This document shows, piece after piece, positions 15,220 through 31,866 of a stretch of 64,000 nucleotides of DNA (position 1 is the stretch's first letter; every line of letters starts with the position of its first letter). Position numbers and translations under genes: made by a program. The stretch is from Verrucomicrobiota bacterium. GTDB lineage: Bacteria; Verrucomicrobiota; Verrucomicrobiia; Opitutales; Opitutaceae. The notes under the pieces are model-generated. The model did no database searches. It had not been told where the DNA came from and saw only the letters and a list, made by a program, of their open reading frames with translations. The stretch spans positions 1-64,000 of the forward strand of contig JACRKC010000069.1 in NCBI GenBank assembly GCA_016235555.1, written 5' to 3'.

Positions 15220-16718
15220 GGGAGCTTTTGCGTTGCGCCGCAGAGCACCTGGGCGACGGCGCGGCGCCACCCCGCATGATACTGCTCGCACATCTCCCGG
15301 GACATGCCGGGACGAAAGACGGTTTCCGCGCGGGGAAGGTTCGCCAGCACGGACACCGACGGCACGAGGCCGAGGCCGAGCATTCCCATCATCGCGGCGC
15401 CGAGCGCCGAGAAGTGCGGGTTGGCCGCCACGCGCAGGTCCGTGCCGGCGAGGTCGGCCACGAATTGCATGAGAAACGCGTTGGTGGTGGCACCGCCGTC
15501 GCCATGCACGCCGCGCAGCGGCACGCCGGATTCGCGGCGCATCGCATCGAGCACGTCGCGCAGCTGGTAGGCGATCGATTCGACGGCGGCGCGCACGACG
15601 TGCCGGCGATCGCTGTGCGCACTCAGGCCGACGAGCGCGGCGCGGGCGGACTCGCTCCAGTGCGGCGCACCGAGCCCGGAGAACGCCGGCACGAGGTAAA
15701 CGCCGCCGTTGTCGGGCACGGCGCGGGCGAGCGCCTCCGTCTCGCGCACATCGGCGATGAGGCCGAGTTGATCACGGAGCCACGTGAGCGTCGCGGCCGA
15801 GCACGTGATGATGCCCTCGAAGGCATAAGTCGGTTGGCCCGCGTGGGTCCACGCCAGCGCCGTGAGCACGCCGCCGCCCGCGATGCGCGGCGTGGCGCCG
15901 ACATTGAGCAGCACGCTCGTGCCGGTGCCAAACGTCGCCTTCGCCGAGCCCGGCTCGAAGCAACGCTGGGCAAAAAGCGACGCCTGCGAATCGCCGATCA
16001 CGCCGCGGATCGGCAGCGGACGTGGGAGCGCGCCGTCGAGCGTGGTCTCGCCGAAGGACGCGGAACTGTCGCGGATCTCCGGCAGCGCGCGGCGGGGAAC
16101 CTCCCAGAGCGCGCAAAGCTCGTCGTCCCACGCGAGGCGGGTAAGATCGAAGAGCAGCGTGCGGGAGGCGTTGGTGGTGTCGGTGGCAAAGACGCGGCCC
16201 TGCGTGAAACGGTGGATAAGATAGGTGTCGATGGTGCCGATGAGCGCGGAGCCGTCGGCGAGTTTCGCGCGCAGCTCCGGGCGATGGCGGACGAGCCACT
16301 GAAGCTTCGACGCCGAAAAATAACTGTCGATCTTCAGACCGGTGCGCGCGTGGACGAACGACTCGCGGCCCGCGGCGACGTGCCCGGCACAAATCGCGTC
16401 GCCCCGGCGATCCTGCCACACGAGCGCCGGGTGGAGCGGCCGGCCGGTGGCGCGCTCGAAGACGACGATGGTTTCGCGCTGGTTGGTGATCGAGAGGCCG
16501 GCGAGGTCGGCAAATTGGTCGGGATGACGGGTGATGACGGCGCGGAGGACGGTCAGCGTGTTTTGCCAGATTTCCTCGGCGTCATGCTCGACCCAGCCCG
16601 GTTGCGGGTAGTGCTGCGCATGGTCGCGGGACTCGCGGTCGAGCGCGCGGCCCTCCGCATCGAAGAGCAGGGCCTTCGTGGCGGAGGTGCTTTGGTCGAG
16701 GGCGAGGATGAAGGGCAT
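15216..16718 (-). CDS. FGGY-family carbohydrate kinase, glycerol-kinase-like
   Basis: 500 residues, full FGGY length. Motifs: ALDQSTSATKALLFD (phosphate loop), GWVEHDAEEIW, ITNQRET with the glycerol-kinase Arg-Glu pair, SYFSASKLQWL with the substrate Tyr, GVIGDSQASLFAQ with the catalytic Asp, GTGTSVLLNVG and GDGGATTNAFLMQF. Most glycerol-contacting positions are kept; the usual GDQQAA is GDSQAS. It could be glycerol kinase, but no glpF, glpD or glpR is nearby. Its place next to a split transketolase and an isomerase suggests a ketose kinase, for example an apulose-kinase-like role. That substrate is inferred. A palindromic repeat separates it from the transketolase gene. Confidence 0.85.
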   Translation of the reverse strand: MPFILALDQSTSATKALLFDAEGRALDRESRDHAQHYPQPGWVEHDAEEIWQNTLTVLRAVITRHPDQFADLAGLSITNQRETIVVFERATGRPLHPALVWQDRRGDAICAGHVAAGRESFVHARTGLKIDSYFSASKLQWLVRHRPELRAKLADGSALIGTIDTYLIHRFTQGRVFATDTTNASRTLLFDLTRLAWDDELCALWEVPRRALPEIRDSSASFGETTLDGALPRPLPIRGVIGDSQASLFAQRCFEPGSAKATFGTGTSVLLNVGATPRIAGGGVLTALAWTHAGQPTYAFEGIITCSAATLTWLRDQLGLIADVRETEALARAVPDNGGVYLVPAFSGLGAPHWSESARAALVGLSAHSDRRHVVRAAVESIAYQLRDVLDAMRRESGVPLRGVHGDGGATTNAFLMQFVADLAGTDLRVAANPHFSALGAAMMGMLGLGLVPSVSVLANLPRAETVFRPGMSREMCEQYHAGWRRAVAQVLCGATQKLP

Positions 16719-16730
16719 TGGGTGTGAAGG

Positions 16731-16797
16731 CAGGAGCCTGCTGGCAGGCGATTCGGCGTGTTTGTGGTCAGTCCATCGCCTGCCAGCAGGCTCCTAC
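16731..16797. repeat. Palindromic repeat, CAGGAGCCTGC family, copy 1
   Basis: Inverted arms at 16731-16752 (CAGGAGCCTGCTGGCAGGCG...) and 16775-16797. Its outer GTAGGAGCC end supplies the TAG stop codon (16794-16796) of the transketolase C-subunit gene. A related copy is at 20351-20426. Confidence 0.9.
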
Positions 16798-17789
16798 AAT
16801 AAGCTGCGCGCAGTCGCGGCGAGGCCTTCCATCGAGATGCCGTAGTGGCGGAAAATGTCGGCCTGGGCGCCGGTGACGGTGTCTTCGTCGGGAAAGCCGA
16901 CGATCTTGAATGGCACGCCTGCGCGGGCCTGCAAAAGCGTGGCGGCGACGGCTTCGCCCACGCCACCGTGGACCGAGTGCTCCTCGACGGTGATGACGGC
17001 GCGACATTCCCGGCCCGCCGCGAGCACGGCAGCGGTGTCGAGCGGCTTCACCGTGTGCAGGCTGAGCACGCGCGCGGAGATGCCCTGCTCGGCGAGCGCG
17101 CCCGCGGCCAGCAACGCATGCACGACGGTCTCGCCGTTGGCGATGAACGCGACATCGCGGCCCTCGCGGAGCACGAGCGCCTTGCCCGCCTCAAACTTCG
17201 AGTCGGCGGAGTGAAGGTGGTGCATCGCGGCCTTGCCGAATCGCACGAAAACCGGGCGCGTCGCCGAAGCTGCGAAGCGAATCGCCTCGCGCGTCTCGAA
17301 ATTATCGGCCGGCACGACGATCGTGACGTTGTGGATCGCGCGGAGCGCGGCGAGGTCGTGCAACGAGTGGTGCGTGCTGCCGAGCGCACCGTAGCTCACG
17401 CCCGAGCTGATGCCGACAAGCACAGCCGGCACGTTCGAGTAGCAGATGTCGTTCTTAATCTGCTCCAGCGAGCGCGCCGTGAGGAAACACGAGGGCGAGA
17501 CGCCGAAGGCCCTCTTGCCGCAGGCGGCGAGGCCGGCGGTGATGCCGACGAGGTTCTGCTCGGCGATGCCAACCTCGACGATCTGTTGCGGCAACGCTTT
17601 GCCGTAGGGCGCGAGCTTGCCCGAGCCACGCGAGTCGGAGGTGACGGCGACGAGGTTGCGGTCGGCGGTGGCCAGGGCCTGTAGCGTGTCGGCAAACTCC
17701 TCGAGATTGGCGCGGCCCTTTTTGAGACCGAGCTTCTCGGCCATTGCTTTCGCCGCGGGCGTAAACATCGACGGGGCGGGTGCGCTCAT
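16794..17789 (-). CDS. Transketolase C-terminal subunit
   Basis: 331 residues, matching the pyrimidine-binding plus C-terminal domains of transketolase. Seen: NLVAVTSDSRGSGKLAPYGKALPQQIVEVGIAEQNLVGIAAG-type region with the catalytic Glu (EVGIAEQN), then ISSGVSYGALGSTHHSLHDLAALRAI, and the C-terminal domain from about 200 (ETVVHALLAAGALAEQG, TVEEHSVHGGVGEAVA). It works with the N-subunit encoded just upstream (ATGA overlap) as a thiamine-diphosphate enzyme moving two-carbon ketol units. Split transketolases often serve specialised pathways; one described case is apulose-4-phosphate transketolase. The stop codon TAG falls inside a palindromic repeat, so the very C-terminus may have been reshaped by insertion. 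Confidence 0.93.
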   Translation of the reverse strand: MSAPAPSMFTPAAKAMAEKLGLKKGRANLEEFADTLQALATADRNLVAVTSDSRGSGKLAPYGKALPQQIVEVGIAEQNLVGITAGLAACGKRAFGVSPSCFLTARSLEQIKNDICYSNVPAVLVGISSGVSYGALGSTHHSLHDLAALRAIHNVTIVVPADNFETREAIRFAASATRPVFVRFGKAAMHHLHSADSKFEAGKALVLREGRDVAFIANGETVVHALLAAGALAEQGISARVLSLHTVKPLDTAAVLAAGRECRAVITVEEHSVHGGVGEAVAATLLQARAGVPFKIVGFPDEDTVTGAQADIFRHYGISMEGLAATARSLL

Positions 17790-18688
17790 GATTTGGAGGT
17801 GGAGCGCGTTGACCCCAACGCGCTGGCTTGGATCGCTCCGGAGGAAAGCGCGTTGAGGGCAACGCGCTCCACCTTCACCTCGGCGGCGTCGAGTTCGGCG
17901 AGTGCTTGCGCGAGTTCCGCGTCGCTCGGCACGCCGTGGTGCCATTTGCCGACATTCTCCATGAAGCTCACGCCTTTTCCTTTCACGGTGTTGGCGATGA
18001 CGAAGAGCGGTTTGCCCGGGTGCGGCGCGGTGAGCGCGGCGGTGAGGGCGGCGTAATCATGGCCGTCCACGATGCGAACCTCCCAGCCGAAGGCGCGCCA
18101 CTTGGCGTCGAGCGGCTCGTTGGACATCACGTCGCGTGTGTGACCGGTGATCTGAAGCGTGTTGTGGTCGAGGATGGCGACCAGGTTGTCCAAGTTGTAG
18201 TGCGCGGCGGCCATCGCCGCCTCCCAGTTGGAGCCCTCGGCGAGTTCGCCGTCGCCGAGCAGTGTGAAGACGCGGAAAGCATCGCCGTCCATTTTCGATG
18301 CGAGCGCCATCCCGAGGCAGATCGGGAGGCCGTGGCCGAGCGCGCCGGTGTTCATCTCGACGCCGCGAATCTTGCGCGTGGGGTGGCCGACGTAGGGCGA
18401 TTGGTAGCGACACACCGTGGCGAGATCCGCCTCGGGAAAATAGCCGCGGGCGGAGAGCACGGCGTAAAGCGCCTCGACGCAGTGGCCTTTGCTCTGGACG
18501 TAGCGGTCGCGCGTCGGCGAATCGACGGTCCCGGGCGTCACGCGAAGCACGCGGTGGTAGAGGACGTTCAGGATGTCGAGGCACGAGAGGCCGCCGCCGG
18601 TGTGGCCGGCGCCGGCGTCATGGATGAGACGCAGCATCCGCCGGCGCAACGCGACGGCTTTGAGGGCGAGTTGGTGATCGGAGAGCAT
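17786..18688 (-). CDS. Transketolase N-terminal subunit
   Basis: 300 residues, the thiamine-diphosphate-binding half. Motifs: LIHDAGAGHTGGGLSCLDIL, DRYVQSKGHCVEALYAVL, TGALGHGLP and the GDG...N cofactor motif in LLGDGELAEGSNWEAAMAAAHYNLDNL. Family-like sequence ends near residue 270. Residues about 272-297 (VALNALSSGAIQASALGSTR and flanks) are encoded by a palindromic repeat at 17798-17873, an in-frame C-terminal addition that reaches the start of the next gene. The ATG at 18688 is preferred over a further upstream in-frame start because the family begins near LSDHQLALKAVALRRRML. It acts with the C-subunit in the proposed ketose pathway. Confidence 0.93.
   Translation of the reverse strand: MLSDHQLALKAVALRRRMLRLIHDAGAGHTGGGLSCLDILNVLYHRVLRVTPGTVDSPTRDRYVQSKGHCVEALYAVLSARGYFPEADLATVCRYQSPYVGHPTRKIRGVEMNTGALGHGLPICLGMALASKMDGDAFRVFTLLGDGELAEGSNWEAAMAAAHYNLDNLVAILDHNTLQITGHTRDVMSNEPLDAKWRAFGWEVRIVDGHDYAALTAALTAPHPGKPLFVIANTVKGKGVSFMENVGKWHHGVPSDAELAQALAELDAAEVKVERVALNALSSGAIQASALGSTRSTSKS
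17798..17873. repeat. Palindromic repeat inside the 3' end of the transketolase N-subunit gene
   Basis: Arms GGTGGAGCGCGTTG at 17798-17811 and CAACGCGCTCCACC at 17860-17873, with an inner imperfect hairpin. It is open in the minus-strand frame, so it extends the upstream protein and forms the leader of the next start codon at 17789. A related element lies at 34484-34530. Confidence 0.9.
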
Positions 18689-18738
18689 CGGACGGTCTTT
18701 AACCACGGATTGCACGGATGAACACGGGCTCAAACACT

Positions 18739-18833
18739 GTCATTCTGAGCGAAGCGGAGAATCCAGCAGGAGAAACGCATCCTGAAACCGTGGCGAGAAT
18801 CCAACTGGATTCTTCGCTGCGCTCAGAATGACA
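18739..18833. repeat. Palindromic repeat TGTCATTCTGAGCG family, copy 1
   Basis: 28-bp near-perfect arms at 18739-18766 (TGTCATTCTGAGCGAAGC...) and 18806-18833 (...GCTCAGAATGACA). It lies between the isomerase and the transketolase N-subunit genes. The second copy is at 26203-26298. Confidence 0.92.
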
Positions 18834-18859: not shown

Positions 18860-20302
18860 TCATTCGTTTCGCGGTTCGTGGTGGTAGACTTCCCAGCCGA
18901 GATAGCGGCCGAACGCCTCTTCAAGCACGGCGGCGGTGTGCGAGGCGTTCATCACGACGTGGTGCTCGAAGCCCTCGCGGCAGACGTGGCGCATGAGGTG
19001 CTGCAGCTTCGGCACACGGGCGACGGCGCGGTTGCCGAAGGTCTTCAGGTCGTCGTTGGTCAACTCGCCTTCGCCAACGTAGGTGCGGATGACGCCCGCG
19101 GCGTCGTCGGTCGTGATGCGGCCATAAGTGAGCGGCGCGGCGGGCGTGCGGCCGTCGAGCGCGCCCCAGGTGTTCTCGACGCCGAGCGTGGAGCCGAGGA
19201 TGGGCGCGTTGAGGACCTTGATGTCGGGGAGGAAAGACTTGGCCCAGTTGCCGCAGTGGAAGAGCACGCATTTGTCGTCGGCGGTGCCGTAGTTGTTGTT
19301 CCAGTCGACGAGTGCGCTCGGCGAATTCGACGCGAGCTGCATCGCATACATCGTGAGCACGCCGGTGACATCGACTTCGCAGGCGCTGGGCAGGAAGTTC
19401 TCGCTCATCATGCTCATCGAGGTGCAGACGTTGCAGCCGTGATTGGCCTGCACGGAGGTCCAGCACTGGATGGCGGTGGCGTCGAGGTGGTTGGCCGCCA
19501 CGAAGTCGTCGAGCACCACGCCGAGGCGGGCCATCTGGGCGAGCTTGGTCGGCGGGACGGCGGTGGCGTTGGCGTAGGCTTTGATCTCGTCGACTTTGGA
19601 CAAGAGCCGCTTGTCGGCGTCGCCGATCTTGCCCGCGGCGCCGAGGATTTCGGAAAGATCCACGGTGGTGACGCTGATGCCGTGGCGCTCGAGGAGTTTC
19701 TCGGAGTAGCGGACAGTGTTGAACGCTCCCGGGCGGGCGCCGACCGCACCGAGCCGGACGCCGCGCACACCGCGCACGACGCGGCACACGGCGACGAAGC
19801 GCTGCAGGTCGGCGCGAAACGAGGCGTCGAGCGGATGCACGACGTGTTTCGTCGTGAGTGAGTAGGCGATGCCGGCCTGGCGGAGATTGTTGCAGACGGA
19901 GATCTTGCCGCAGAACGAGTCGCGGCGGCGCACGACATCGAGCTTGTCGAGCTCGTCGGGGTAGCCTTGCACGAGCACCGGGACATTGAGGCCGGCGAGT
20001 TTGAGCGTGTCGGCGACGCCTTTCTCGTCGCCGAAGTTTGGCAGACACACGAGCACGCCGTTGATTTTGTCGCGATGGCGACGGAAGAGGTCCGCGCATT
20101 TGCGCGCGTCGTTGTGCGTCTCGACGCCGCCGAGTTTCGTCTCGGCCGGGTCGAGCATGACGGCGTCAAGGCCGAGCTCGCCAAAGAGCTTCACGACGTC
20201 GGCGCGCGCCTCGGGCACGAGCTTGTCAGGGAAGAAGTCGCGGTTGCCGAAGATGACGCCGATCGTCGTCGGCGATGGGACTTTGGAGTTGGGAGAGGGC
20301 AT
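18860..20302 (-). CDS. L-fucose/L-arabinose isomerase-fold family protein
   Basis: 480 residues, no signal peptide. It follows the FucI/AraA fold: an N-terminal Rossmann-like half (IGVIFGNRDFFPDKLV, INGVLVCLPNFGDEKGV, VPVLVQGYPDEL) and a C-terminal half with plausible metal ligands Glu309 (CEVD), Asp333 (VDWNN) and His349 (FHCGN), the E-D-H set expected for this superfamily. Such enzymes interconvert aldoses and ketoses with Mn(II). In this operon it would feed a ketose to the FGGY kinase and the split transketolase. Specificity cannot be read from sequence: no fuculose or rhamnulose aldolase is present, which argues against classical fucose catabolism. Repeats flank it on both sides. Confidence 0.85.
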   Translation of the reverse strand: MPSPNSKVPSPTTIGVIFGNRDFFPDKLVPEARADVVKLFGELGLDAVMLDPAETKLGGVETHNDARKCADLFRRHRDKINGVLVCLPNFGDEKGVADTLKLAGLNVPVLVQGYPDELDKLDVVRRRDSFCGKISVCNNLRQAGIAYSLTTKHVVHPLDASFRADLQRFVAVCRVVRGVRGVRLGAVGARPGAFNTVRYSEKLLERHGISVTTVDLSEILGAAGKIGDADKRLLSKVDEIKAYANATAVPPTKLAQMARLGVVLDDFVAANHLDATAIQCWTSVQANHGCNVCTSMSMMSENFLPSACEVDVTGVLTMYAMQLASNSPSALVDWNNNYGTADDKCVLFHCGNWAKSFLPDIKVLNAPILGSTLGVENTWGALDGRTPAAPLTYGRITTDDAAGVIRTYVGEGELTNDDLKTFGNRAVARVPKLQHLMRHVCREGFEHHVVMNASHTAAVLEEAFGRYLGWEVYHHEPRNE

Positions 20303-20452: not shown

Positions 20453-21883
20453 TCACGGCACGACGTTGACGATGACGCGCGCGTAGCGCGTGAGCCGCGG
20501 CGTGCCGTGGTCGGTCACGGCGAGGATGACGTGCATCGCGCCCGTGCCGGGCGGCATGACGCGGCTCGTGGGGACGTTGAACCAGGCATTCTTTTGATCG
20601 TGGTTCTTGATTTCAAGCGGCTGGCCGGAACGCGCGCTGGAGAGCGGGAAAGTGCCGGCCTCGTTGTAGTAGAACCACTCGTAGGACAGCGCATCGCCAT
20701 CCGGATCAGTGGTGCCTTCGGCGCTCAGATCGACGCGCGCGCCGCGTTTGGCGGTGAGCGCGGCGGCGTGCGCGAGCTTGGGCGCGGGCGGGTGATTGGC
20801 GCCGGGCCGCGGCCTGATCGTCCAATCCATGCGCGCGGCGAAGTCGTTTTGACAGGCGGAACGCCAGCGCCAGATCGTGGCGTGGTTGTTGTCGTGCCAG
20901 CGGCCGTCGATGCCGAGGACCTCGTCGTCGGCGTCGGTCCAGAACGGACGCGTCTCCGGCGCGGCGTGCCACTTCTGCGGACGCGGCGTGTAGAACTCGT
21001 AGCGTCCGCCCCACCCGCCCCAGTTCGGATGCTCGGAATCGGTCAGGCCGTTGTTGATGAGGTTGAGGAAACTCGGCGTGTCGCCCTCCATCAGAAAGTC
21101 CCAGCGCGGATATTCGGCGCCGAGCGGGCCCTTGCGGCGGATATTGGTTTCGAGCCACTCGTTGGTCACGAGCGTGAAATCCGCGCCGGCGCTGCGCGCA
21201 TGGAAATAGTCGCCGCTGATGCCGCTCCACGTGGCGTGGTGGTAGGCGCCACCCGCGTTGTAGCCCGGGCTCGTGATATAGAACAACGCGGGAAACTCCT
21301 TCCGCAGCCACGGGCCGGAGTCGTCTTGATCGGAGATCGTGTAAACGCGGACCTTGGCAACGAACTTCGCGAGCGCGTCGGCGGAACGCGTGGCGCGGAC
21401 TTTCCACAGGGCCTGCGCGAGCACGCTCGGGCCGCCCCACACGGGCACCCACACGGGGCGCGGGTCCTCGCGATCCACGGCGCGAATCAGGAGCGCGGAG
21501 GCCGGCGAGTCCTTGCCCTGCCCGACGCCCTCCATGCCGTAAACGGGCAGCCCTTCGGTGACACGCGCGAGCAGGTAGTCCCCGGTCGGGAAACCGGGCT
21601 CGTGCAGCTCGAGGTTGTCGCGCACTTTGCCGTAAGCGGCGACGATGCGGCGGATGGTCTGCGGGGCGACGCGCGTGCGCTGGTGCGTGGAAGTCGTGGC
21701 GGCGAGGCCCTCGATGTCGAAGTGGTTCGCGTAGGTGAGAAAACGCACCATCGACATGGCGTCGTCGGGCTCGTTCTCGATGTCGGTGAGGACGAACACG
21801 CGAGGTTTTTCGGCGGCCGAAAAACCTAAGGTAAAGGCCGCGGAGAAAACCGCGAGGAGGGCGAAGGCGGTGCGGAGCTTCAT
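20453..21883 (-). CDS. Secreted DUF1593 protein 1 (nucleoside-hydrolase-like, Sde182-type)
   Basis: 476 residues, longest of three tandem paralogues. A signal peptide ([24 protein letters not shown]) is followed by a nucleoside-hydrolase-like domain with the N-terminal acidic motif [13 protein letters not shown], a pattern that binds calcium and catalyses glycosyl transfer to water in nucleoside hydrolases. From about residue 385 a beta-rich C-terminal domain follows ([20 protein letters not shown]), as in Sde182-type proteins. The family is often labelled cellulose-binding, but catalysis is uncharacterised. An ATGA overlap with the preceding paralogue shows translational coupling. In this locus a periplasmic furanosidase role is proposed; this is inference. 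Confidence 0.82.
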
Positions 21884-23276
21884 GGGTTGGGGGATTTGCA
21901 GCGGAGCATTCGCGCGGCGAAGTCGCGGAGAAACTCCTCCCGCCAGCGGCTGACGGTCTTCACACCGTGCTGGCCGCCTTGCACGAGCTCGGGCGAGAGA
22001 TCGTCGGCCCACCAGTTCGGATGTTGGGCGGACGGGCGCGACGCGGCGTCGGGCGGCGTGAGAAACGACGTGATGCTCCCGGTCTGGCCGTTGAGCCCGG
22101 CCCAGTCGCTGTAGATGGTGTAATTCCACGTGCGCGCTGCTTTCGGCGAGAAACGGAAGCGCAGCCTGCCGGTCGTCGGGTCAACGGTGCCGGGGATCAT
22201 CTGGTTTTCCATCGCGAGGTGCGCCCGGTGCGACACGGGCTTGCCTTCGCCCGGAGGAATCTCGATTTGGACGATGGCGTAGACTTCGACGCGATCCGCG
22301 GCGGTGGTCAGCCGATCGAAAACTGCGCGCGGCCGGTCCCACGCGCGGATGAAGCTGCCACCCCAATGCGGCTTCGCCGGATCCTCCGGATCGGCGCTGA
22401 GCAAATAGGCGACGCTCGGCGTGTCGCCCATCTTCATCGAACCGCCGCTGTAGTTCGCGAGGTAGTCACCGAGCGCGCCGTGTCCGGCCACATGCCGCCT
22501 GATGAACTCGGCGTTGCCCCACTCGCCCTGCTGATTGCCGCCGACGAACCAACCGGTGTAGGTCGAGTTCGCCTCGATGATCCAGAGGGCGCGGTGGTGC
22601 TGCTCGATATAGTCGTAGGCATTGGTGCTCCACTTCTTGTTCGGGCCGCCGATCCAATAAACGCGGAGCTTCGGTAAGATGTCGGGCGCGTCGTGCAGCG
22701 CCTGCGCGACATCGTCGAGGCCGCCCCATCCGAGCACCCACAACGGCCGCGGATCGGGGCGCCGCGCGCACTCGATGATCCACTGCGAGCCTTCGCTGGG
22801 GACGTCGTGGCCGGCATCGCCGACGGCGTCTGGTGCGCCTTGCTTTGTGATCGCGCGGAGCGCCGCGGGCGTCGGGTAACGCACGGAGTGTGTGCGCAGG
22901 GTGGCGAAATCTTTCTCGTAGGCGTCGATCGTGCCGAGGATGTCTTTCTTGCGGCCCGGGCCGTAGGGCGACGCGATCAGGCCCTCGAGTTCGAGCGTGT
23001 CGGCATACAACAACACATGCGCCATCGATTGATTGTCGTCCTGATCGGTGCCGCCGATGTCGCTGGATACGATCACGCGGTGGCGCGAGGTCCCGGTTTC
23101 AGCCGCGAAGGAAAAAGCAGGCACAAACGTCAGTAGCATCCACGCGAGCCAGGCACGCAGGTAGGGCCGGCTCTCCGAGCCGGCCTGGGTTTGCGGCCAC
23201 GAAGCGTAAAGATGCACGCGGAAACTCAGGCCGGCTCGGAGAGCCGGCCCCACCTCTGAAAGGACGATTCGGTCGC

Positions 23277-23280
<4 letters not shown>
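21880..23280 (-). CDS. Secreted DUF1593 protein 2
   Basis: 466 residues if begun at the coupled ATG (23280, overlapping the previous stop by 4 bp). The signature [20 protein letters not shown] starts near residue 70, followed by the same domain order as its neighbours ([55 protein letters not shown]). Residues 9-40 are encoded by a palindromic repeat at 23161-23255, placed between the ATG and the true signal peptide ([21 protein letters not shown]). An internal ATG at 23139 would give a 419-residue protein beginning MLLTFVPAF, which looks more natural. Which start is used decides whether the repeat is translated. Function as for the paralogues: unproven glycan hydrolase. Confidence 0.8.
23161..23255. 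repeat. Palindromic repeat at the 5' end of the second DUF1593 gene
   Basis: Arms 23161-23186 (GTAGGGCCGGCTCTCCGAGC...) and 23228-23255 (AGGCCGGCTCGGAGAGCCGG...). It is open in the minus-strand frame between the coupled ATG at 23280 and the signal-peptide codons. Confidence 0.9.
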
Positions 23281-24511
<1,231 letters not shown>

Positions 24512-24515
<4 letters not shown>

Positions 24516-25495
24516 GTGGTGTCGCGCGAGGAGGCGTTGAGTTTGTCGATCGCCACGGCGAGGAGGATGACGGCGCCCTTGATCACCTGCTGCCAGAAGG
24601 GCGACACATTGAGCAGAAACAGCCCATTGTTGAGCACGCCGATGATGAGGCAGCCGAGCACGGTGCCGCCGATGGTGCCGCGCCCGCCGGAGAGCGAGGT
24701 GCCGCCGATGACGACGGCGGCGATGGCGTCGAGTTCGTAGCCGAGCCCGGCGGTCGGCTGGGCGGAGTCGAGTCGCGCAGTGACGAGCAGGCCCGCCACA
24801 CCGGCGAGCGCGCCCGCGAGCGCGTAAACGGAAAAACGGATGCGCGCGACGGCGAGGCCCGCGAGGCGCGCGGTGAGCTCGTTGCTACCGACGGCATACA
24901 CGTGACGACCGAACACGGAGTGGCGCGCGACGAGCGCAAACCAACCCGCGAGCGTCGCGACGATCCACACGGGCATCGGCACGCCGAGCGGCGCGCCCGT
25001 GCCGAGATAGCCGAAACGCGGCCCGAGATCGGTGATGGGGAATCCGCCGGTCCAGAGCATGGTGAGCCCGCGCCCGATGCTCAACATGCCGAGCGTCGCG
25101 ATGAACGGCGGCAGGCGCAGCGCGGTGACGGCGAGGCCATTCACCGCGCCGAGCGCGAGGCCGACCACGATCGCGGCGACGATGGCGCCGGTGAGCGTGA
25201 AATCGAGCCGCACCCCGAGCACGGGAAGGGGCAGTCCGCTTTTGAACAACCCGGCGGCCACCGCGCCCGCGAGCCCGAGGGTCGCCCCGACGGAAAGGTC
25301 GATGCCACCGCTCACGATCACGAGCGTGAGGCCGACCGAAAGGCAGAGGTTCACGGAAATCTGGCGCAGGATGTTCCAGCCGTTGTCCGTGGTGAGAAAT
25401 TTGTCCGACAGCAGGCTCAGCACCACGGCCATGACCACCAGCGCGAGCAGCGACTGGAAGCGGGCGAGAAACTCGCGTGAGGCGGGACGCGTCAT
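24512..25495 (-). CDS. RbsC-type sugar ABC transporter permease
   Basis: 327 residues with about ten hydrophobic segments, the size and pattern of the BPD_transp_2 family (ribose, xylose and related importers). Family stretches: NLCLSVGLTLVIVSGGIDLSVGATLGLAGA, AVNGLAVTALRLPPFIATLGM, YAVGSNELTARLAGL and ELDAIAAVVIGGTSLSGGRGT. It should pair with the binding protein at 26334. The partner ATPase (RbsA-type, about 500 residues with two nucleotide-binding domains) is not in the window. Both ends overlap neighbours by 4 bp (DUF2291 gene and DUF1593 protein 3), so no space remains for it here. Confidence 0.92.
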
Positions 25496-26163
25496 GGGGC
25501 GGCGGAAATCTCGACGGGCACGACGACGAGCAGCGGACCGGACTCGATGCTCTCGGGCGCCTCGGCGCAGCCGGCGAACGCCAGCGTGGCGCCGACCCTG
25601 GCGCGCTCACGCAGCACGGGAAACACCTGGGCTTCGACGAGGCGGTTGAGCTCGGCGGAGAGGGCATTGAACTCCGCGAGGCCGGGAAAATCGTTCACGT
25701 TGAGGAGGCCGGTGCCGTCGCGGACCGTGTTGCCGAACAACGGGCCGGTGCCGAGCGCCACCGTGACGCCGTCGAGGTCGAGGAGCACGCGATTGCGCTC
25801 GACGGCGGTAACGCGGCCGGTGCCGCGGAAAAAATAGTAACCGCTGCCGCCGACGCCGGCAACGCGGGCGAATTGCTTCGCCGCGGCGGCGGGGTCGCGG
25901 CGGAGGGCGGGGACGAGCGCGGTGGAGTCGGTGGCGCGGGCGGCGGCGGGGGTGAGGCGCTCGCGCCAGAATTTTTCGGTGAACGCGGCGGGATCGAAAG
26001 CGGCGGGTGCGGCGTCACCGGAGCCCGTGACGGCCGCGGTGGCGACGGCGCCTTTGGTCTGGAGCGGGACGACGCGGAAGAGCGGAAAAAAGCAGAGAGC
26101 GATGCCGCTCACGCAGACGGCGGCGAAAGGGATAGTGGGAATTTTTTGGACGGAGACGGCCAC
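25492..26163 (-). CDS. DUF2291 family protein linked to sugar import
   Basis: 223 residues with a GTG start. One N-terminal hydrophobic segment (IPFAAVCVSGIALCFFPLFRV) anchors or exports it; the rest is a soluble alpha/beta domain with GSGYYFFRGTGRVTAVERNRVLLDLDGV and a strand-rich end. DUF2291 proteins are small extracytoplasmic proteins commonly encoded with RbsABC-like sugar importers, and their role is unknown. Here the gene lies between the binding protein and the permease and is coupled to the permease by an ATGA overlap. The assignment rests on length, topology, context and remembered family pattern. Confidence 0.7.
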   Translation of the reverse strand: MAVSVQKIPTIPFAAVCVSGIALCFFPLFRVVPLQTKGAVATAAVTGSGDAAPAAFDPAAFTEKFWRERLTPAAARATDSTALVPALRRDPAAAAKQFARVAGVGGSGYYFFRGTGRVTAVERNRVLLDLDGVTVALGTGPLFGNTVRDGTGLLNVNDFPGLAEFNALSAELNRLVEAQVFPVLRERARVGATLAFAGCAEAPESIESGPLLVVVPVEISAAP

Positions 26164-26333: not shown

Positions 26334-27284
26334 TCACTTGCGACCATAGTCGCCGAACTTTTTCACGTTGGCTTTCGTCACGAGCTCGACGGCGACGGGC
26401 GTGCGCTGCGGGAACTTGCGCTCGCCCTTGAGGTATTTGTCGGCGTTTTCCGCGGCGGAGCGCGCCATGGTTTTGGGAAATTGCATGACGGTCGCCGTGA
26501 TTTTCCCCTCGGCGACGGACTTCACAACATCGTCGGCGCCGTCGAAACCGAAGACTTTCACCTTCGCCGCCTTGCCCGCGGCGAGCAACGCCTGGTAGGC
26601 GCCCATGGCCATCGCGTCGTTGCCACAGAAAACGGCGTCGATGTCGGGATTGCGCTGGAGCAGCGACTCGAGGACTTCGAGGGCCTTCGCGCGATCGAAC
26701 TCGGCGCTTTGCTGCGCGACGAGCTTGAGGCCCGGGAAGCGGTCGACGACCGAGTGGAAGCCCTTGGAGCGGTTCCACGTGTTGGTGTCGGCGACGAGGC
26801 CGAGGAGCTCGATGTATTTGCCGGTCTCGCCGACCTGCTCGACGAAATACCGGCCGAGCGCGACGCAGCCGGAGTAGTTGTCGGAGAGAATCTGCGAAGT
26901 GGCGGCGTCGTTGGCCTCGATCTCCCGATCCATGCAGAAGACGGGGACGCCGGCGGCCTTGGCGCGGCGGACGTTGGCGATGGAGCCCCTGGCGTCGGTG
27001 CAATTGAAGAGCACGGCGGCGTAGCCGGAGGCGATGAGGTTGTCGAAGTGCTGGGACTCCTTCGCGGGATCGTTTTGGGAATCGAAGATGGTGGCGTCGT
27101 AGCCGAGCTCCTTCGCGCGATCCCGGGCGGTGTTGGCGAGGACGACGAACCAGGGGTTGTTGAGCGTGGAGATGACGACGGCGACGCGCTGGCCGGCGGC
27201 GGGCGCGGCGGCGTGGACCGGAAGGGCGACGAGCGCCGCGAGCGCGGCACCGACGAGGAGACGGATGAGGCGGAGCGTGATCAT
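26334..27284 (-). CDS. RbsB-type periplasmic sugar-binding protein
   Basis: 316 residues. A signal peptide ([27 protein letters not shown]) is followed by a Peripla_BP_4 domain: [73 protein letters not shown] and [21 protein letters not shown]. It closely follows the ribose-binding protein pattern, so a furanose or related small sugar is a reasonable ligand class. First gene of the minus-strand operon. The region upstream (27285-27541) is shared with the divergent AraC gene and holds a likely AraC operator at 27416-27455. The ATG at 27284 begins the signal peptide directly. Confidence 0.93.
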
Positions 27285-27415
27285 CGGAAGGGGCGGTCGT
27301 GGTATGGAGAGGTGTCGCGGACGACTCAACCCCGCGCACGGGGCGCAGCAAGGGCGGGGCCGAGGCGGCCGGTGAGTGCCGGGGACGCGAGACGGTAGCA
27401 AGAGCAGTCGTGGGA

Positions 27416-27455
27416 GGTCTTCCGGGAAGCCGGCAAAGACTTCCTGAATCCTAAG
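27416..27455. promoter_or_regulatory. Putative AraC-regulator operator upstream of the sugar operon
   Basis: On the minus strand the site begins CTTAGGATTCAGGAAGTC and ends CCCGGAAGACC. Half-sites AGGAAGTC and CGGAAGAC are 21 bp apart, two helical turns, as in AraC/XylS direct-repeat operators. A matching 40-bp site with the same spacing precedes the TonB receptor gene (31827-31866). It lies 131 bp upstream of the binding-protein start and 86 bp upstream of the AraC gene. Confidence 0.65.
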
Positions 27456-27541
27456 CACGTTGACACGATGGCGCCGGAGGAGCAAAGCAGGACCGCGAGC
27501 GAACCGCGCGGCGCCCCTCCACCCCACTCCGGCCAAACCTC

Positions 27542-28411
27542 ATGGTCACTTTCGATCCCACTCGACCCGATTTCGCGCCGTATGGCTTCACGTGCGTGCG
27601 GTGGCATCCCGAGCCGATGCGGCGGCCCGACCGGCACAACGAGGTCGAGTTGAACTTCCTCGAACGCGGCTGGGTGACCTACCTGCTCGGCGGGCGCAAG
27701 GTGCGGCTGGAGGCGGGCATGTTGAGCGGATTCTGGGCGGCGATTCCGCACCAGATCATTGATTACGGGGACGAGCCCGACTACTTCGTCGCGACGATTC
27801 CCCTGCCCTGGTTCCTGCAATGCCGCCTGCCGGACCACCTCGTGCAGCCATTGCTGCGCGGCCAGGTCATCCGGGACCCGACGACGGAGCGGGCGGCGGC
27901 GGACAGCGCTTTGTTTGCGCACTGGGTGCGGGATTTGAAAGCACCTCGCGCCGAGATCACCCGGGCGGTGCTGCTCGAAATGGAGGCCAGACTGCTGCGG
28001 CTCGCCGTCGTGGTGCCGCCGGAGCCGGCCGGCCCGAAACGCTCCCGCCAGACGGGCCTCGATGGCGGCGAGCTCACGAAGGTCGAACAAATCGCCTGCC
28101 TGATCGCGCAGCGTTACACAGAGCCGTTGAGCGTCGAGGACATCGGGCGCGCGGTGAAGCTGCACCCGAACTACGCGATGAACCTGTTCCAGCGGACGTT
28201 CGGCACGACGCTGATCGAATACCTGACGCAGCACCGCGTGTCGCACGCCCAGCGGCTGCTGGCAACGACGGACGCGAAGATCGTCGATGTGGCGTTCAGC
28301 TCGGGGTTCACTTCGCTCAGCCGGTTCAACGACGCGTTTCGCCGCGCGTGCGGGTGCCCGCCACGCGAGTATCGGGCGCAGCACCGGCTGGAGATTCAGA
28401 CGGGAGGATAG
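27542..28411 (+). CDS. AraC family transcriptional regulator
   Basis: 289 residues. The N-terminal half resembles the AraC cupin sugar-sensing domain (HNEVELNFLERGWVTYLLGG, PHQIIDYGDEPDYFV). The C-terminal part, about 190-285, is the double helix-turn-helix domain (QIACLIAQRYTEPLSVEDIG, LHPNYAMNLFQRTFGTTLIEYLT, VDVAFSSGFTSLSRFNDAFRRACGCPPREYR). It is divergent from the sugar operon and should activate it in response to a sugar; it probably also controls the TonB receptor, since both promoters share a 40-bp motif. The start at 27542 gives a normal family length. Confidence 0.92.
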   Translation: MVTFDPTRPDFAPYGFTCVRWHPEPMRRPDRHNEVELNFLERGWVTYLLGGRKVRLEAGMLSGFWAAIPHQIIDYGDEPDYFVATIPLPWFLQCRLPDHLVQPLLRGQVIRDPTTERAAADSALFAHWVRDLKAPRAEITRAVLLEMEARLLRLAVVVPPEPAGPKRSRQTGLDGGELTKVEQIACLIAQRYTEPLSVEDIGRAVKLHPNYAMNLFQRTFGTTLIEYLTQHRVSHAQRLLATTDAKIVDVAFSSGFTSLSRFNDAFRRACGCPPREYRAQHRLEIQTGG

Positions 28412-28415
28412 CGGC

Positions 28416-28444
28416 AAGAAAAAGGCCCGCCTCATCGGCGGGCC
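28416..28444 (-). terminator. Rho-independent terminator of the TonB receptor gene
   Basis: On the minus strand an 8-bp stem (GGCCCGCC/GGCGGGCC, 28424-28431 and 28437-28444) is followed by TTTTTCTT. It lies 40 bp beyond the receptor stop at 28485, and just after the convergent AraC gene, which it may also serve less efficiently. A second small hairpin is at 28451-28467. Confidence 0.85.
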
Positions 28445-28484
28445 GGAAAACGAGGCGGGACGCCTCGTCCACGACACACACCGA

Positions 28485-31400
28485 TCAGAAGGTGCCGCGG
28501 ATGCCGACGGAGAACTGGGCGCCGTAGTTTTCGAAGTTGGTCTTCGCAGCGTAGTCGACGGCGCCGGGACCGGCGACCTCCCACTCGCTGTCGGCGTTCA
28601 GGATGTTCCGGCCCGACAGATAGAGGGCGAAGTGCTTCGTGAGCTGGAAGTCGACGTTGCCGTCAAGTTGGTAGCGGGCCCGGATGTATTCGGCCCCGCC
28701 GGTGCTGAGGCCGTTGATCAGAGTGGCGGTGTCACGCTGCATCCGACCGCGCCAATTGAGCAGGAAGTTGCCGGAGAGCTTGCCCCAGGCGAAACGCAGG
28801 CCGGCGTTGCGCGTGCGCGGAATGTAGCGCTTCCAATCGGTCGGCGTGATGCGCGACCCGGACAGCTCGAGGTGCGTGGTGTTGAGCGTGAGGGTGAGGG
28901 GCCGCAGGTAGCGATCGGCGGAGGCGAGCGCGCCCAGGCTGGCGAGGTTGGCGAGCGGCAGATTGAAATTCGCCTCCCAGCCCTTGATCATCGCATCGCT
29001 GATGTTGATGCGCGTGGAGTATTGATAGCCGACGAACTCGCGCGACAGACCGAGTGAATCGAGGAGCGCGGCGTCGGCGATCGTGGTCTGGGTGCTGAAG
29101 AAGTCGCGGATGTCCTTCTTATACCAGTTGAACGAGGCGAGGCCGTTCTTCGGCAGGTAGTATTCGAGCGAGTAGTCGTAGTTCATCGCGCGCCAGGGAC
29201 GGAGCGTGGAGTTGCTCGCGGTCACGAAGCCGGGGACGGTCGCGGAGCTGTTACCGGCGATGCCGAAGTTCACGTTGTCCTGCACGAAGAGATTGGGGAC
29301 GACGTCGGAGATGTTGGGCCGGCCCATCGTCTTCGCGACCGCGGCGCGGACGAGGAGGTTGTCGCTGACGTTGTAGGTCGCGTGCAGGCTCGGGAAATAG
29401 TAGGCGTAGTCGCGCTCGCCGGGGCTCTGGCGATAGCGGTAGATGAGCGCATTCTGCTCGGGGCCGCCGGTGACGGTGCCGGCGAGCGAGGGCAGGAGCT
29501 GGTATTGGCCGTTGGCGCCCTTGACGGGATGGCCGGCGGCGTCCTTCACGTAGATCGCGTTGGCGTCCTGCTTGTAGCCGAGGCCCTCGTCCTTGGTGAG
29601 TTCGTAGCGCACGCCGCCGACGAGGCGGAGGCGGTTGTTGAGGAGCTTGGCGTCGGCCATCGCGTAGCCGGCGGTGATCGTCTCGCGCAACCAGGGCGAA
29701 CGCACCGCCTCGTTGCGGATCGTGTCCCCCATGTTGGTCGCGGAGCGCACGAACCACGACGGGCGGTCCTTGAGCGCGCGGGCGATCAGCCATGGGCTGG
29801 CCCACTCGGGCCCGCGGACGCCGAAACCGGGGCTCACGCCGGAGACCGTCGAGTCGATGAAGTTGACCTGGTTGGAGACCATGAATTCGTCGCCGTTGCC
29901 GAGGATGCCATCGGGGCCGGCGAAGGTGGTCGTCCACAGCGAGTATTTCGCGTCGCGCGTCATCTCGTTCACCGTGCCGCCGACCTTGAGATTCACCGCG
30001 ACGCCCGCGAGGTTCAGCTTGCGGGTGACGTTGCCGCGGACCTCTTTGACGGTGTCGTGACTGTCGGCGGGCTGGCTCTGCACCTGACCGAGCGCGAAAC
30101 TCGAGAGGTGATAGGGATCCATCTCCCGGCCGGTGGCGTCGAGAACGGTGATCTTGTTCACCCACGCAGTGGAGTTGTCGAAGCCCTCGAGATTGACGGT
30201 GCGCACGTTGGGCATCGAGGTGCCGAGGCCGTTCCAGAAACCCTTGGCCATGTCGCGGACGCGGTTGTTGGAATTGGAGTAGCTGGCCGCGAGTTCCGTG
30301 AGCCAGTCGGTGCCGTTGTAAGTCCAGCGCGTGCCCAGCTGCCGGAGGAGGCCGTTGCGGTTCTGGAAGCTGTTGCCGAGCGAGACCGAGCCGGTGCCGG
30401 CGGCGCCCGTCGAGCCGAAGGTGTTATGCTCATCCCAGCGCACGGGAATGGTGCCGCCGGTGTTGAACGTGATCGTGCGGTTGGAGAACTGCTGGTAGTT
30501 GGCGTTGGCCTGCGCGGAGAACTCGAGCACGTGACGGGGCAGCGGTTTCCAGTCGAGCTTGATGGAGCCGGAGGTGCGCTCGATGCGGTTCGGATTGAAG
30601 GTGTAGGCGAGCGACGTGGTCTGCGGGTTCTTCTGGTAGGACACGAAATTGGCCGTCGTGGCGTTGGTGCCGGTGAAGTAGCGGCGGCCGAACACCGCCT
30701 TGTTTTGCAGGTAAAATTGCGTGGACTGCGCGACGTTGAGGACGATGCCGAACGTCTTGCTGACGGGGTTGACGTAGGTGAGATCGAAGTTCGGCAGCAC
30801 CTTGTAGGATTTGTCCTCGCCGGGGCCGGCCGTCTGGCCGAGGCCCAAGGCCTTGCTGTTGGCGGAGAGAAACACGTTGAAGGTGAGCTGCTGCTTCGGG
30901 CGCTCGAAGGCGCTCTTGCTCACGAAATTCACGGCGCCGCCGAGGAGGTTGGCGGACATGTCGGGCGTGGGGAGCTTGGTGACCTCGATGCGGGAGAGGT
31001 TGTTGATGTTGGCCTGCTCGAGGAGAAAGCCGCGCGAGGAAGTCTGGGTGTTGGCGATGAGCGTGCTGGCGAGCTGGCCACCGTCCATCGTGACGTTGGT
31101 GTAGTTCGGATCGAAGCCGCGGATCATGATGCCGGAGGGGCTGTTGCCGTCCTTCACGTCGAGCGAGATGCCGGGGATGAACTTCACGAACTCGCCGATG
31201 TTGCCGGTGTTGATGTCGCCGAACTGATCGGTGGAGACGACGTCCTTGCGGTTGGGCGCGAAGCGCTGCTCGTTGATCGCGATCGCGGCGGCGTCGGTCT
31301 CGCGCTGGCTCTGCACGACGAACTGGCGCAGCAACACGGTGTCGCCCTCGCGGCCCGGCTCGCCGAATTCGCGGAGCACGACGTCCTGCTGCACGGTGTC

Positions 31401-31721
31401 GCCCGTGCGCACGTTGACGGAGAGTTTCTTCGTCGCGAGGCCGGTGTGGAAGACCTCGAGCGCGGCCGGGCCCGCGGGCACGCCGGCGAGGCGGAATTCG
31501 CCGAAGCTGTTGGTGAACGCCTCGAGCGTGGTGCCGGTCACGCGCACGCGGGCGTTGGTGAGGTAGCTGCCGGAGGTCTCGCTTTGCACGCGGCCCTCGA
31601 TGGCGCCGGTGGCGGATTGAGCGGAAACATCGGAAACGATGGCGAAGGCGGCGAACAGCGAGATAGCACGGAAGGCGCGTCGGCCAGCGTGCACGAGCGT
31701 GCGGAGGGAGGTCAGGTTCAT
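28485..31721 (-). CDS. TonB-dependent receptor with carboxypeptidase-regulatory-like domain
   Basis: 1078 residues. Signal peptide to about 35 (SDVSA-QSA). Residues about 38-118 are a CarboxypepD_reg-like beta-sandwich (GAIEGRVQSETSGSYLTNARV, FTNSFGEFRLAGVPAG). The plug follows at about 150-280 (GNIGEFVKFIPGISLD, IMIRGFDPNYTNVTMDGGQL, RIEVTKLPTPDMSANLLGGAVNFVSKSAF). The remainder is a 22-strand-type barrel ending in an aromatic C-terminal strand (QFSVGIRGTF). It imports large or scarce substrates across the outer membrane with TonB energy. The promoter region shares a 40-bp motif with the sugar operon, so its cargo is probably the glycan processed there. A strong terminator follows. Confidence 0.93.
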   Translation of the reverse strand: MNLTSLRTLVHAGRRAFRAISLFAAFAIVSDVSAQSATGAIEGRVQSETSGSYLTNARVRVTGTTLEAFTNSFGEFRLAGVPAGPAALEVFHTGLATKKLSVNVRTGDTVQQDVVLREFGEPGREGDTVLLRQFVVQSQRETDAAAIAINEQRFAPNRKDVVSTDQFGDINTGNIGEFVKFIPGISLDVKDGNSPSGIMIRGFDPNYTNVTMDGGQLASTLIANTQTSSRGFLLEQANINNLSRIEVTKLPTPDMSANLLGGAVNFVSKSAFERPKQQLTFNVFLSANSKALGLGQTAGPGEDKSYKVLPNFDLTYVNPVSKTFGIVLNVAQSTQFYLQNKAVFGRRYFTGTNATTANFVSYQKNPQTTSLAYTFNPNRIERTSGSIKLDWKPLPRHVLEFSAQANANYQQFSNRTITFNTGGTIPVRWDEHNTFGSTGAAGTGSVSLGNSFQNRNGLLRQLGTRWTYNGTDWLTELAASYSNSNNRVRDMAKGFWNGLGTSMPNVRTVNLEGFDNSTAWVNKITVLDATGREMDPYHLSSFALGQVQSQPADSHDTVKEVRGNVTRKLNLAGVAVNLKVGGTVNEMTRDAKYSLWTTTFAGPDGILGNGDEFMVSNQVNFIDSTVSGVSPGFGVRGPEWASPWLIARALKDRPSWFVRSATNMGDTIRNEAVRSPWLRETITAGYAMADAKLLNNRLRLVGGVRYELTKDEGLGYKQDANAIYVKDAAGHPVKGANGQYQLLPSLAGTVTGGPEQNALIYRYRQSPGERDYAYYFPSLHATYNVSDNLLVRAAVAKTMGRPNISDVVPNLFVQDNVNFGIAGNSSATVPGFVTASNSTLRPWRAMNYDYSLEYYLPKNGLASFNWYKKDIRDFFSTQTTIADAALLDSLGLSREFVGYQYSTRINISDAMIKGWEANFNLPLANLASLGALASADRYLRPLTLTLNTTHLELSGSRITPTDWKRYIPRTRNAGLRFAWGKLSGNFLLNWRGRMQRDTATLINGLSTGGAEYIRARYQLDGNVDFQLTKHFALYLSGRNILNADSEWEVAGPGAVDYAAKTNFENYGAQFSVGIRGTF

Positions 31722-31826
31722 GGTCGTGGTAACGTGCGTGAGGTAGATCAGAACGCGACAGGGTCAAACTGCCGCCCGGCAGGAAGGGCATCCGGTGCAG
31801 TCATCATAGGCCAACCGATAGCGCCA

Positions 31827-31866
31827 GTTCTGCCGGGTTTTCCAGCAAGATTTCCGGTATCCTAAG
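31827..31866. promoter_or_regulatory. Putative AraC-regulator operator upstream of the TonB receptor gene
   Basis: The minus strand begins CTTAGGATACCGGAAATC and ends CCCGGCAGAAC. It matches the site at 27416-27455 in the CTTAGGAT block and in half-sites CGGAAATC and CGGCAGAA with the same 21-bp spacing. It is 105 bp upstream of the receptor ATG, a fitting distance for an activator site. Confidence 0.65.

Follow-up and report, generated by a model that had tools for sequence, protein, structure and literature searches.

The window analysed here, a stretch of DNA of 64,000 nucleotides, covers positions 1-64000 of contig C34 in an Opitutaceae genome of 8.03 Mb. It holds the gene of an AraC-type regulator (araC, 27542-28411, plus strand), which is flanked on one side by a divergent operon starting at 27284 on the minus strand with the gene of a solute-binding protein (SBP), and on the other side by a convergent gene for a TonB-dependent receptor (28485-31721, minus strand). 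Two sites of 40 bp on the minus strand, operator 1 at 27416-27455 and operator 2 at 31827-31866, lie upstream of the operon and of the receptor gene, respectively. We consider it about 90% probable, judging from sequence comparison, that these are the operators through which the AraC-type protein activates the SBP operon and the receptor gene.

The two sites and an independently derived motif

A first-pass annotation, made from the letters of the window, had aligned the two sites over 40 bp and had described a common beginning, half-sites exactly 21 bp apart and a position of one site in the divergent araC region. All of this was reproduced. Aligned without gaps, the sites are identical at 27 of 40 positions, each starts with CTTAGGAT, and the cores, AGGAAGTC and CGGAAGAC in operator 1 and CGGAAATC and CGGCAGAA in operator 2, begin at positions 11 and 32 of the 40-mer. 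The distances of 131 bp to the SBP start (27284) and 105 bp to the receptor start (31721) were also as given, and operator 1 lies between the SBP gene and araC, 125 bp from the presumed araC start (27542). The half-sites given there cover the inner cores alone, and the conserved distal box TTAGnAT is part of the site as well. In dinucleotide shuffles of the two intergenic regions (n=300) the best alignment reached 26 of 40 identical positions (mean 22.4), which makes the pair by itself suggestive, not conclusive; this evidence is modest because the first-pass annotation had already picked the pair.

A motif was derived from relatives without the window. Seventy-seven loci with AraC orthologues, 47-69% identical in the best segment, were used, the closest orthologues being mostly from Opitutaceae or Opitutia (Verrucomicrobiota). 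Upstream sequence was sufficient in 74 of them, whereas L036, L056 and L074, in which the contig ends just upstream of araC, were left uncounted. De novo expectation-maximisation (EM) on the 74 upstream regions gave.CTTAG.ATACCG..AGTA.T......AA...AGG.AGA. with 64.1 expected occurrences and a log-likelihood of 986; three Markov-resampled sets, run with fewer seeds, reached 127-172. The matrix found only two matches above 4 bits in the window, at 31828 (37.6 bits) and 27417 (35.7 bits), while the best score in 30 Markov shuffles of the window was 6.7 bits. Across 1.26 Mb of loci there were 95 sites above 16 bits versus 0.67 in resampled loci; 63 of these were araC-divergent sites in training regions and 32 were others, one of which (in L080) also lay in a training region. 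Absence of the motif upstream of orthologous operons had been named beforehand as the observation that would speak against a regulon, and the motif was found divergent from araC, above 16 bits, in 63 of the 74 orthologue loci. Matrices built from more distant relatives gave the same picture: with 28 non-Opitutaceae sites the window sites ranked 1 and 2, and with 15 sites from Planctomycetota, Acidobacteriota and Sumerlaeota they again ranked 1 and 2 (34.2 and 29.7 bits; next 14.8).

The genome scan proposed in the first-pass annotation was made with R1, a sequence-only profile of 51 araC-divergent sites of at least 22 bits, near-duplicates removed. At E ≤ 10 it matched only the two window sites in the whole 8.03 Mb (25.5 and 24.9 bits), 150 of 331 first-look candidates being scored; on the window with filters off the next best match was 6.1 bits. 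The occurrence of the motif was then compared with that of the regulator, an AraC orthologue being defined as a match at E ≤ 1e-60, a cut-off chosen after the family-genome matches had been seen. The family sample comprised 150 genomes, 32 with such a match and 118 without it. The motif was found at E ≤ 0.01 in 19/32 genomes with the orthologue versus 0/118 without, at E ≤ 0.05 in 24/32 versus 1/118, and at E ≤ 0.5 in 28/32 versus 7/118. In a phylum-wide draw of 288 genomes, it was present at E ≤ 0.01 in 9/12 genomes with the orthologue and in 0/276 of the others (P 7e-15, uncorrected for phylogeny); part of this draw is shared with the family sample, and its motif matches fall without exception in the family. 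The filters were stricter in both scans, with 43 or 22 candidates scored per genome.

Several observations weigh against an operator reading, or limit the evidence for it. The Fisher P for the family, between 6e-16 and 6e-20, is likewise uncorrected for phylogeny. G057, which lacks an AraC match at E ≤ 1e-60, gives the motif at E 0.0136, and seven genomes of this kind match at E ≤ 0.5. Of the 32 family genomes that have the orthologue, 8 gave no match at E ≤ 0.05, in a scan whose filters lose weak matches. Matches adjacent to araC are partly circular in the genomes that supplied rows of the model; matches in the window's own genome and those away from araC are independent of these rows. No araC-divergent site above 16 bits was present in 11 of the 74 loci, namely L061, L062, L071, L072, L076, L077, L080, L083, L088, L090 and L097, of which L071, L080, L083, L088, L090 and L097 have such a site elsewhere in the locus and five have none. 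Both non-Opitutaceae matrices gave a third match in the window, at 13073 on the plus strand and inside a gene (11.0 and 14.8 bits), which we take as chance. Behind the 95 sites of the relatives, 43 first open reading frames (ORFs) match no protein of the window. Finally, contig C130 of the window's genome carries a paralogous araC in whose neighbourhood R1 gives no match, so that the assignment of sites to one paralogue or the other is provisional.

Architecture of the site and the genes behind it

The first-pass annotation had recognised the direct-repeat layout of AraC-family operators, and this is borne out by the motif columns: when they were compared with each other at offsets 12-30, only offset 21 scored positive. 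The distal box is not merely a part of the araC promoter, since away from araC each half of the site predicts the other and both halves therefore form one element. Non-araC sites selected on the first matrix half alone carried G34, A37 and G38 in 10 of 16 cases (chance about 1/64 each), and among those selected on positions 11-40 alone, 5 of 7 had at least three of the four TTAG letters, three of them all four. Mean pairwise identity among the 63 araC-divergent sites of relatives was 0.53 within the site, 0.35 at a -10-like element and 0.26-0.31 elsewhere.

This -10-like element, TAnnnT, stands at motif position 59 or 60 in 65 of the 95 sites (43/63 araC-divergent, 22/32 other) and at position 60 in both window sites. 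At the remaining positions it occurs in a mean of 0.51 araC-divergent and 0.29 other sites; apart from position 54, where 10 araC-divergent and 3 other sites carry it, the highest counts are 6 and 3. If transcription is taken to start 7 bp beyond the hexamer, the centre of the site is estimated at -50.5 to -51.5. At araBAD of Escherichia coli the direct-repeat half-sites I1-I2 of AraC are centred at -52.5 and partly overlap the -35 element (PMC7408454), and the window site resembles them in its direct repeats, its estimated centre near -51 and the AraC-type DNA-binding domain of its presumed regulator; operator sequence and target genes differ, and no far looping site was found in the present analysis. 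MtlR of Pseudomonas has at PmtlE a pair of similar 15-bp blocks upstream of -35, one at -72 to -58 and the other at -50 to -36 (PMC4514859); the AraC/XylS-type activator layout is shared with it, whereas operator sequence and substrate class are not. On the fixed spacing to the -10-like element, together with the likeness to AraC and MtlR, the geometry of the site is predicted to be that of an activator, with the proximal half-site adjacent to or overlapping -35.

In 61 of the 63 relatives the site begins no more than 80 bp from the presumed araC start, compared with 125 bp in the window. In L092, L098, L100, L105 and L107 the distal box ends approximately 3-5 bp before that start, taken as the first residue aligned to the window AraC, and a leaderless, self-repressed araC transcript may be the case there. 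A double role of the distal box as -10 element of araC (TATnCT near the araC start) was considered; it misfits the window, where the bases are AATCCT.

Among the first ORFs behind araC-divergent sites (n=63), compared with the window proteins, 14 matched the isomerase, 10 an Sde182-like protein, 7 the SBP, 2 the TonB receptor, 1 AraC and 29 none; for the 32 other sites the counts were TonB receptor 6, isomerase 4, Sde182-like 4, SBP 3, AraC 1 and none 14. The isomerase was the commonest window homologue (18/95 sites), and the matches to the TonB receptor were weak (26-38% identity) and all in Verrucomicrobiota. Away from araC, at a distance of at least 2 kb or on a different contig, motif matches precede the isomerase in G104, G081 and G029, on other contigs, and in G040, 2 kb from araC; in G013 a match 250 kb from araC precedes a TonB receptor. 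Others stand before GH127 and a sugar transporter (G006), an alpha-L-fucosidase (G076) and an MGH1-like hydrolase (G043, G097). Pfam was run on 10 of the 43 unmatched first ORFs, picked by eye, and on 7 first ORFs from the genome matches. Three apiosidase-like proteins, an alpha-L-rhamnosidase, GH127, a pectate lyase and an alcohol dehydrogenase were among the ten, and no catalytic domain was found in those of L069, L092 and L103; among the seven, that of L113 was phytanoyl-CoA dioxygenase-like and that of L133 was without a Pfam match. Two groups of genes recur together in relatives, the isomerase with two transketolase halves and kinase, and the SBP with DUF2291, an ATPase-like gene and permease. 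Judged by these gene assignments, the common theme is a plant cell-wall sugar that is taken up and used. A search for the identity of this sugar gave no answer.

The regulator and competing explanations

The product of araC matched the Pfam families HTH_18 (1.2e-21; 77.2 bits, cut-off 33.6) and HTH_AraC (3.1e-16, in two stretches), and in profile comparison the domains of AraC, SoxS, MarA and Rob. Its AlphaFold2 model (mean pLDDT 88.3) has seven N-terminal strands and, from residue 180, seven C-terminal helices, and Foldseek matches in the PDB were ToxT, Rns, AraC and RhaR. The C-terminal domain matches AraC-type helix-turn-helix (HTH) structures, with the two HTH units of the AraC/XylS family. 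The Cupin_2 score was only 19.9 bits (cut-off 27.2), and the N-terminal beta domain matches the regulatory domains of AraC (2arc) and RhaR (5u93) with Foldseek E values of 1.5e-4 to 5e-4; the N-terminal cupin-like domain of sugar-type AraC/XylS members is thus present in the predicted structure. The best NCBIfam match was the MelR equivalog NF007693, and the score of 162.7 bits was below its cut-off of 253; for the AraC arabinose-operon equivalog NF007860 it was 49.9 bits versus 208. The regulator is therefore placed in the family and not in a named subfamily. MelR of E. coli serves the melibiose operon divergent from its own gene; the window regulator resembles it by this best match, and the targets differ.

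The paralogue mentioned above (L142, G000:C130:94081-94926) is 59% identical to the regulator, has a different first recognition helix and adjoins a GH127-like gene and a TonB receptor. It perhaps governs a parallel regulon with a diverged operator. Variant sites related to the motif were seen with paralogues of the NSAMRLF type in L066, L091 and, as a second site, L034. A shifted operator for paralogues with this altered first recognition helix was considered; the paralogue of the window's genome fits it unclearly, and no claim is made.

Could the sites be genuine operators and yet belong to another protein, such as this paralogue or an unrelated regulator? A second AraC-type protein is indeed present in the same genome, and relatives have AraC paralogues with altered recognition helices, so the idea has some ground. 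Against it, the site adjoins the gene of a window-type regulator in 63 of 74 orthologue loci, and at E ≤ 0.01 no orthologue-free genome has it (0/118, 0/276), while laxer cut-offs admit one and then seven of 118; moreover, the flank of the paralogue has no R1 match and its 17.1-bit candidate site looks different. We regard binding by another protein as decidedly unlikely. A mere duplicated promoter fragment, or chance similarity without regulatory meaning, would suit the identity of 27/40, barely above the shuffle maximum, and is practically excluded in our judgement, given that motifs built without window data, even from other phyla, rank these two sites first, and that identity among the relatives' 63 sites drops from 0.53 inside to 0.26-0.31 in the flanks, which contradicts both duplication and chance.

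As to the mode of action, the regulator might be mainly a repressor, or might form a loop joining the two sites over 4.4 kb, like that of AraC from O2 to I1, with derepression driving the operon. E. coli AraC is of dual nature and uses the far upstream half-site O2 (PMC7408454); both window sites have the same orientation, and autorepression would suit the closeness of the site to the presumed start of araC, 80 bp or less in 61 of 63 relatives. What argues against it is the -10-like element at a fixed spacing past the proximal half-site, in the direction of the target and at araC-divergent and other sites alike, which is expected for activation. In addition, 17 of the 35 family genomes with motif matches at E ≤ 0.5 have a single match. 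Repression or looping as the main mode is thus considered unlikely, and activation by the AraC-type protein through both operators is the reading followed below.

Genes of the window and the proposed regulon

The features of the locus are collected in Table 1.

Table 1. Operators, promoter-like elements and genes of the locus in window coordinates.
Feature	Position	Strand	Basis or remark
Operator 1, 40 bp (candidate)	27416..27455	-	SBP-operon/araC divergent region; distal box CTTAGGAT; cores AGGAAGTC (27438-27445), CGGAAGAC (27417-27424)
Operator 2, 40 bp (candidate)	31827..31866	-	Upstream of TonB-dependent receptor; cores CGGAAATC (31849-31856), CGGCAGAA (31828-31835)
-10-like TACCGT at motif position 60, for SBP operon	27392..27397	-	Sequence; position enriched over relatives' sites
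-10-like TATGAT at motif position 60, for TonB receptor	31803..31808	-	Sequence; position enriched over relatives' sites
AraC/XylS-family regulator, 289 aa, presumed activator	27542..28411	+	Pfam, AlphaFold2 model, Foldseek
Ribose-type SBP, operon 1 gene 1	26334..27284	-	Pfam Peripla_BP_4 4.2e-60
DUF2291 lipoprotein	25492..26163	-	Pfam
Sugar ABC permease	24512..25495	-	Pfam
Sde182 nucleoside hydrolase-like protein 1	23277..24515	-	Pfam
Sde182 nucleoside hydrolase-like protein 2, start approximate	21880..23256	-	Pfam
Sde182 nucleoside hydrolase-like protein 3 with Sde0182_C domain, start approximate	20453..21880	-	Pfam
Isomerase with Fucose_iso_C domain	18860..20302	-	Pfam
Transketolase N-terminal subunit, start approximate	17786..18691	-	
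Transketolase C-terminal subunit, start approximate	16794..17789	-	
FGGY kinase, glycerol-kinase-like subfamily	15216..16718	-	
TonB-dependent receptor, putative target of operator 2	28485..31721	-	

The kinase scored 556.6 bits against NF000756 (cut-off 498), which makes it glycerol-kinase-like. The isomerase was far below the cut-off of the sulfoquinovose isomerase SftI equivalog (74.9 versus 700 bits), and a search of solved structures at E ≤ 0.01 gave no match for it. Three Sde182 nucleoside hydrolase-like genes stand in tandem (20453-24515), and for the first of their products the sole solved-structure match found was 2yhg, named cellulose-binding protein. In 10 of 16 tabulated relatives the genes of DUF2291 and permease are separated by an ABC-ATPase-like gene, recognised by motifs. 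The window lacks it, and the two genes overlap there by 4 bp (25492-25495); when the window's own genome was compared with a relative's ATPase, the best match was 48% identical and on a different contig. Downstream of the kinase gene is a frame of 880 aa (12577-15219), for which Pfam at E ≤ 0.001 gave no match. Between the isomerase and transketolase genes an inverted repeat, TCATTCTGAGCGAAGCGGAGAATCC ... GGATTCTTCGCTGCGCTCAGAATGA, was noticed at 18740-18831, resembling a dispersed palindromic repeat.

The first-pass annotation had linked AraC, the sugar operon and the TonB receptor into one regulon, and this proposal gains support from the relatives, in which the same motif precedes isomerase, SBP, Sde182-like and TonB-receptor genes and co-occurs with the orthologue. 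We propose that two subunits of the regulator would bind head-to-tail on the half-sites 21 bp apart, and that a plant-cell-wall sugar or fragment, bound by the cupin domain, would be the inducer. The proximal subunit, next to the expected -35 position, would recruit RNA polymerase to both promoters. The operon from SBP to kinase, presumably a single transcript, and the TonB receptor would thereby be switched on together, joining outer-membrane uptake, inner-membrane uptake and breakdown, and the position of the site near the presumed araC start in relatives suggests that araC is autoregulated. This kind of gene switch is already known, and the present one is a new, well-supported example. A description of the regulon was not found in the literature surveyed, in which subscription papers were thinly covered, and this is no proof of absence.

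To our knowledge, few operators have been defined in the polysaccharide degraders of Verrucomicrobiota and Planctomycetota. A cluster for D-apiose degradation, with kinase aplK and transketolases aptA and aptB, belongs to a plant cell-wall sugar context (PMC13001218). By gene description the window is similar in having a sugar kinase and two transketolase genes, and three relatives fit the same context with an apiosidase-like protein encoded first behind the motif; the Fucose_iso_C-family isomerase and the glycerol-kinase-like kinase of the window set it apart. It is possible, though doubtful, that a regulon not described before is marked by this operator and occurs in at least Verrucomicrobiota, Planctomycetota, Acidobacteriota, Sumerlaeota and Pseudomonadota. 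Its function would be to free one sugar of pectin side chains, either D-apiose or a different furanose, and to make use of it; the Sde182-like proteins would be the glycosidases, and the isomerase of the Fucose_iso_C family would form, with the kinase and the split transketolase, a new route into central metabolism. The specificity of the motif, with two matches in 8 Mb, lets sequence scanning tie the Sde182 family and the orphan isomerase to one regulator. The enzymes tied together by the motif probably have one inducer, and a short list of promoters and ligands follows from this.

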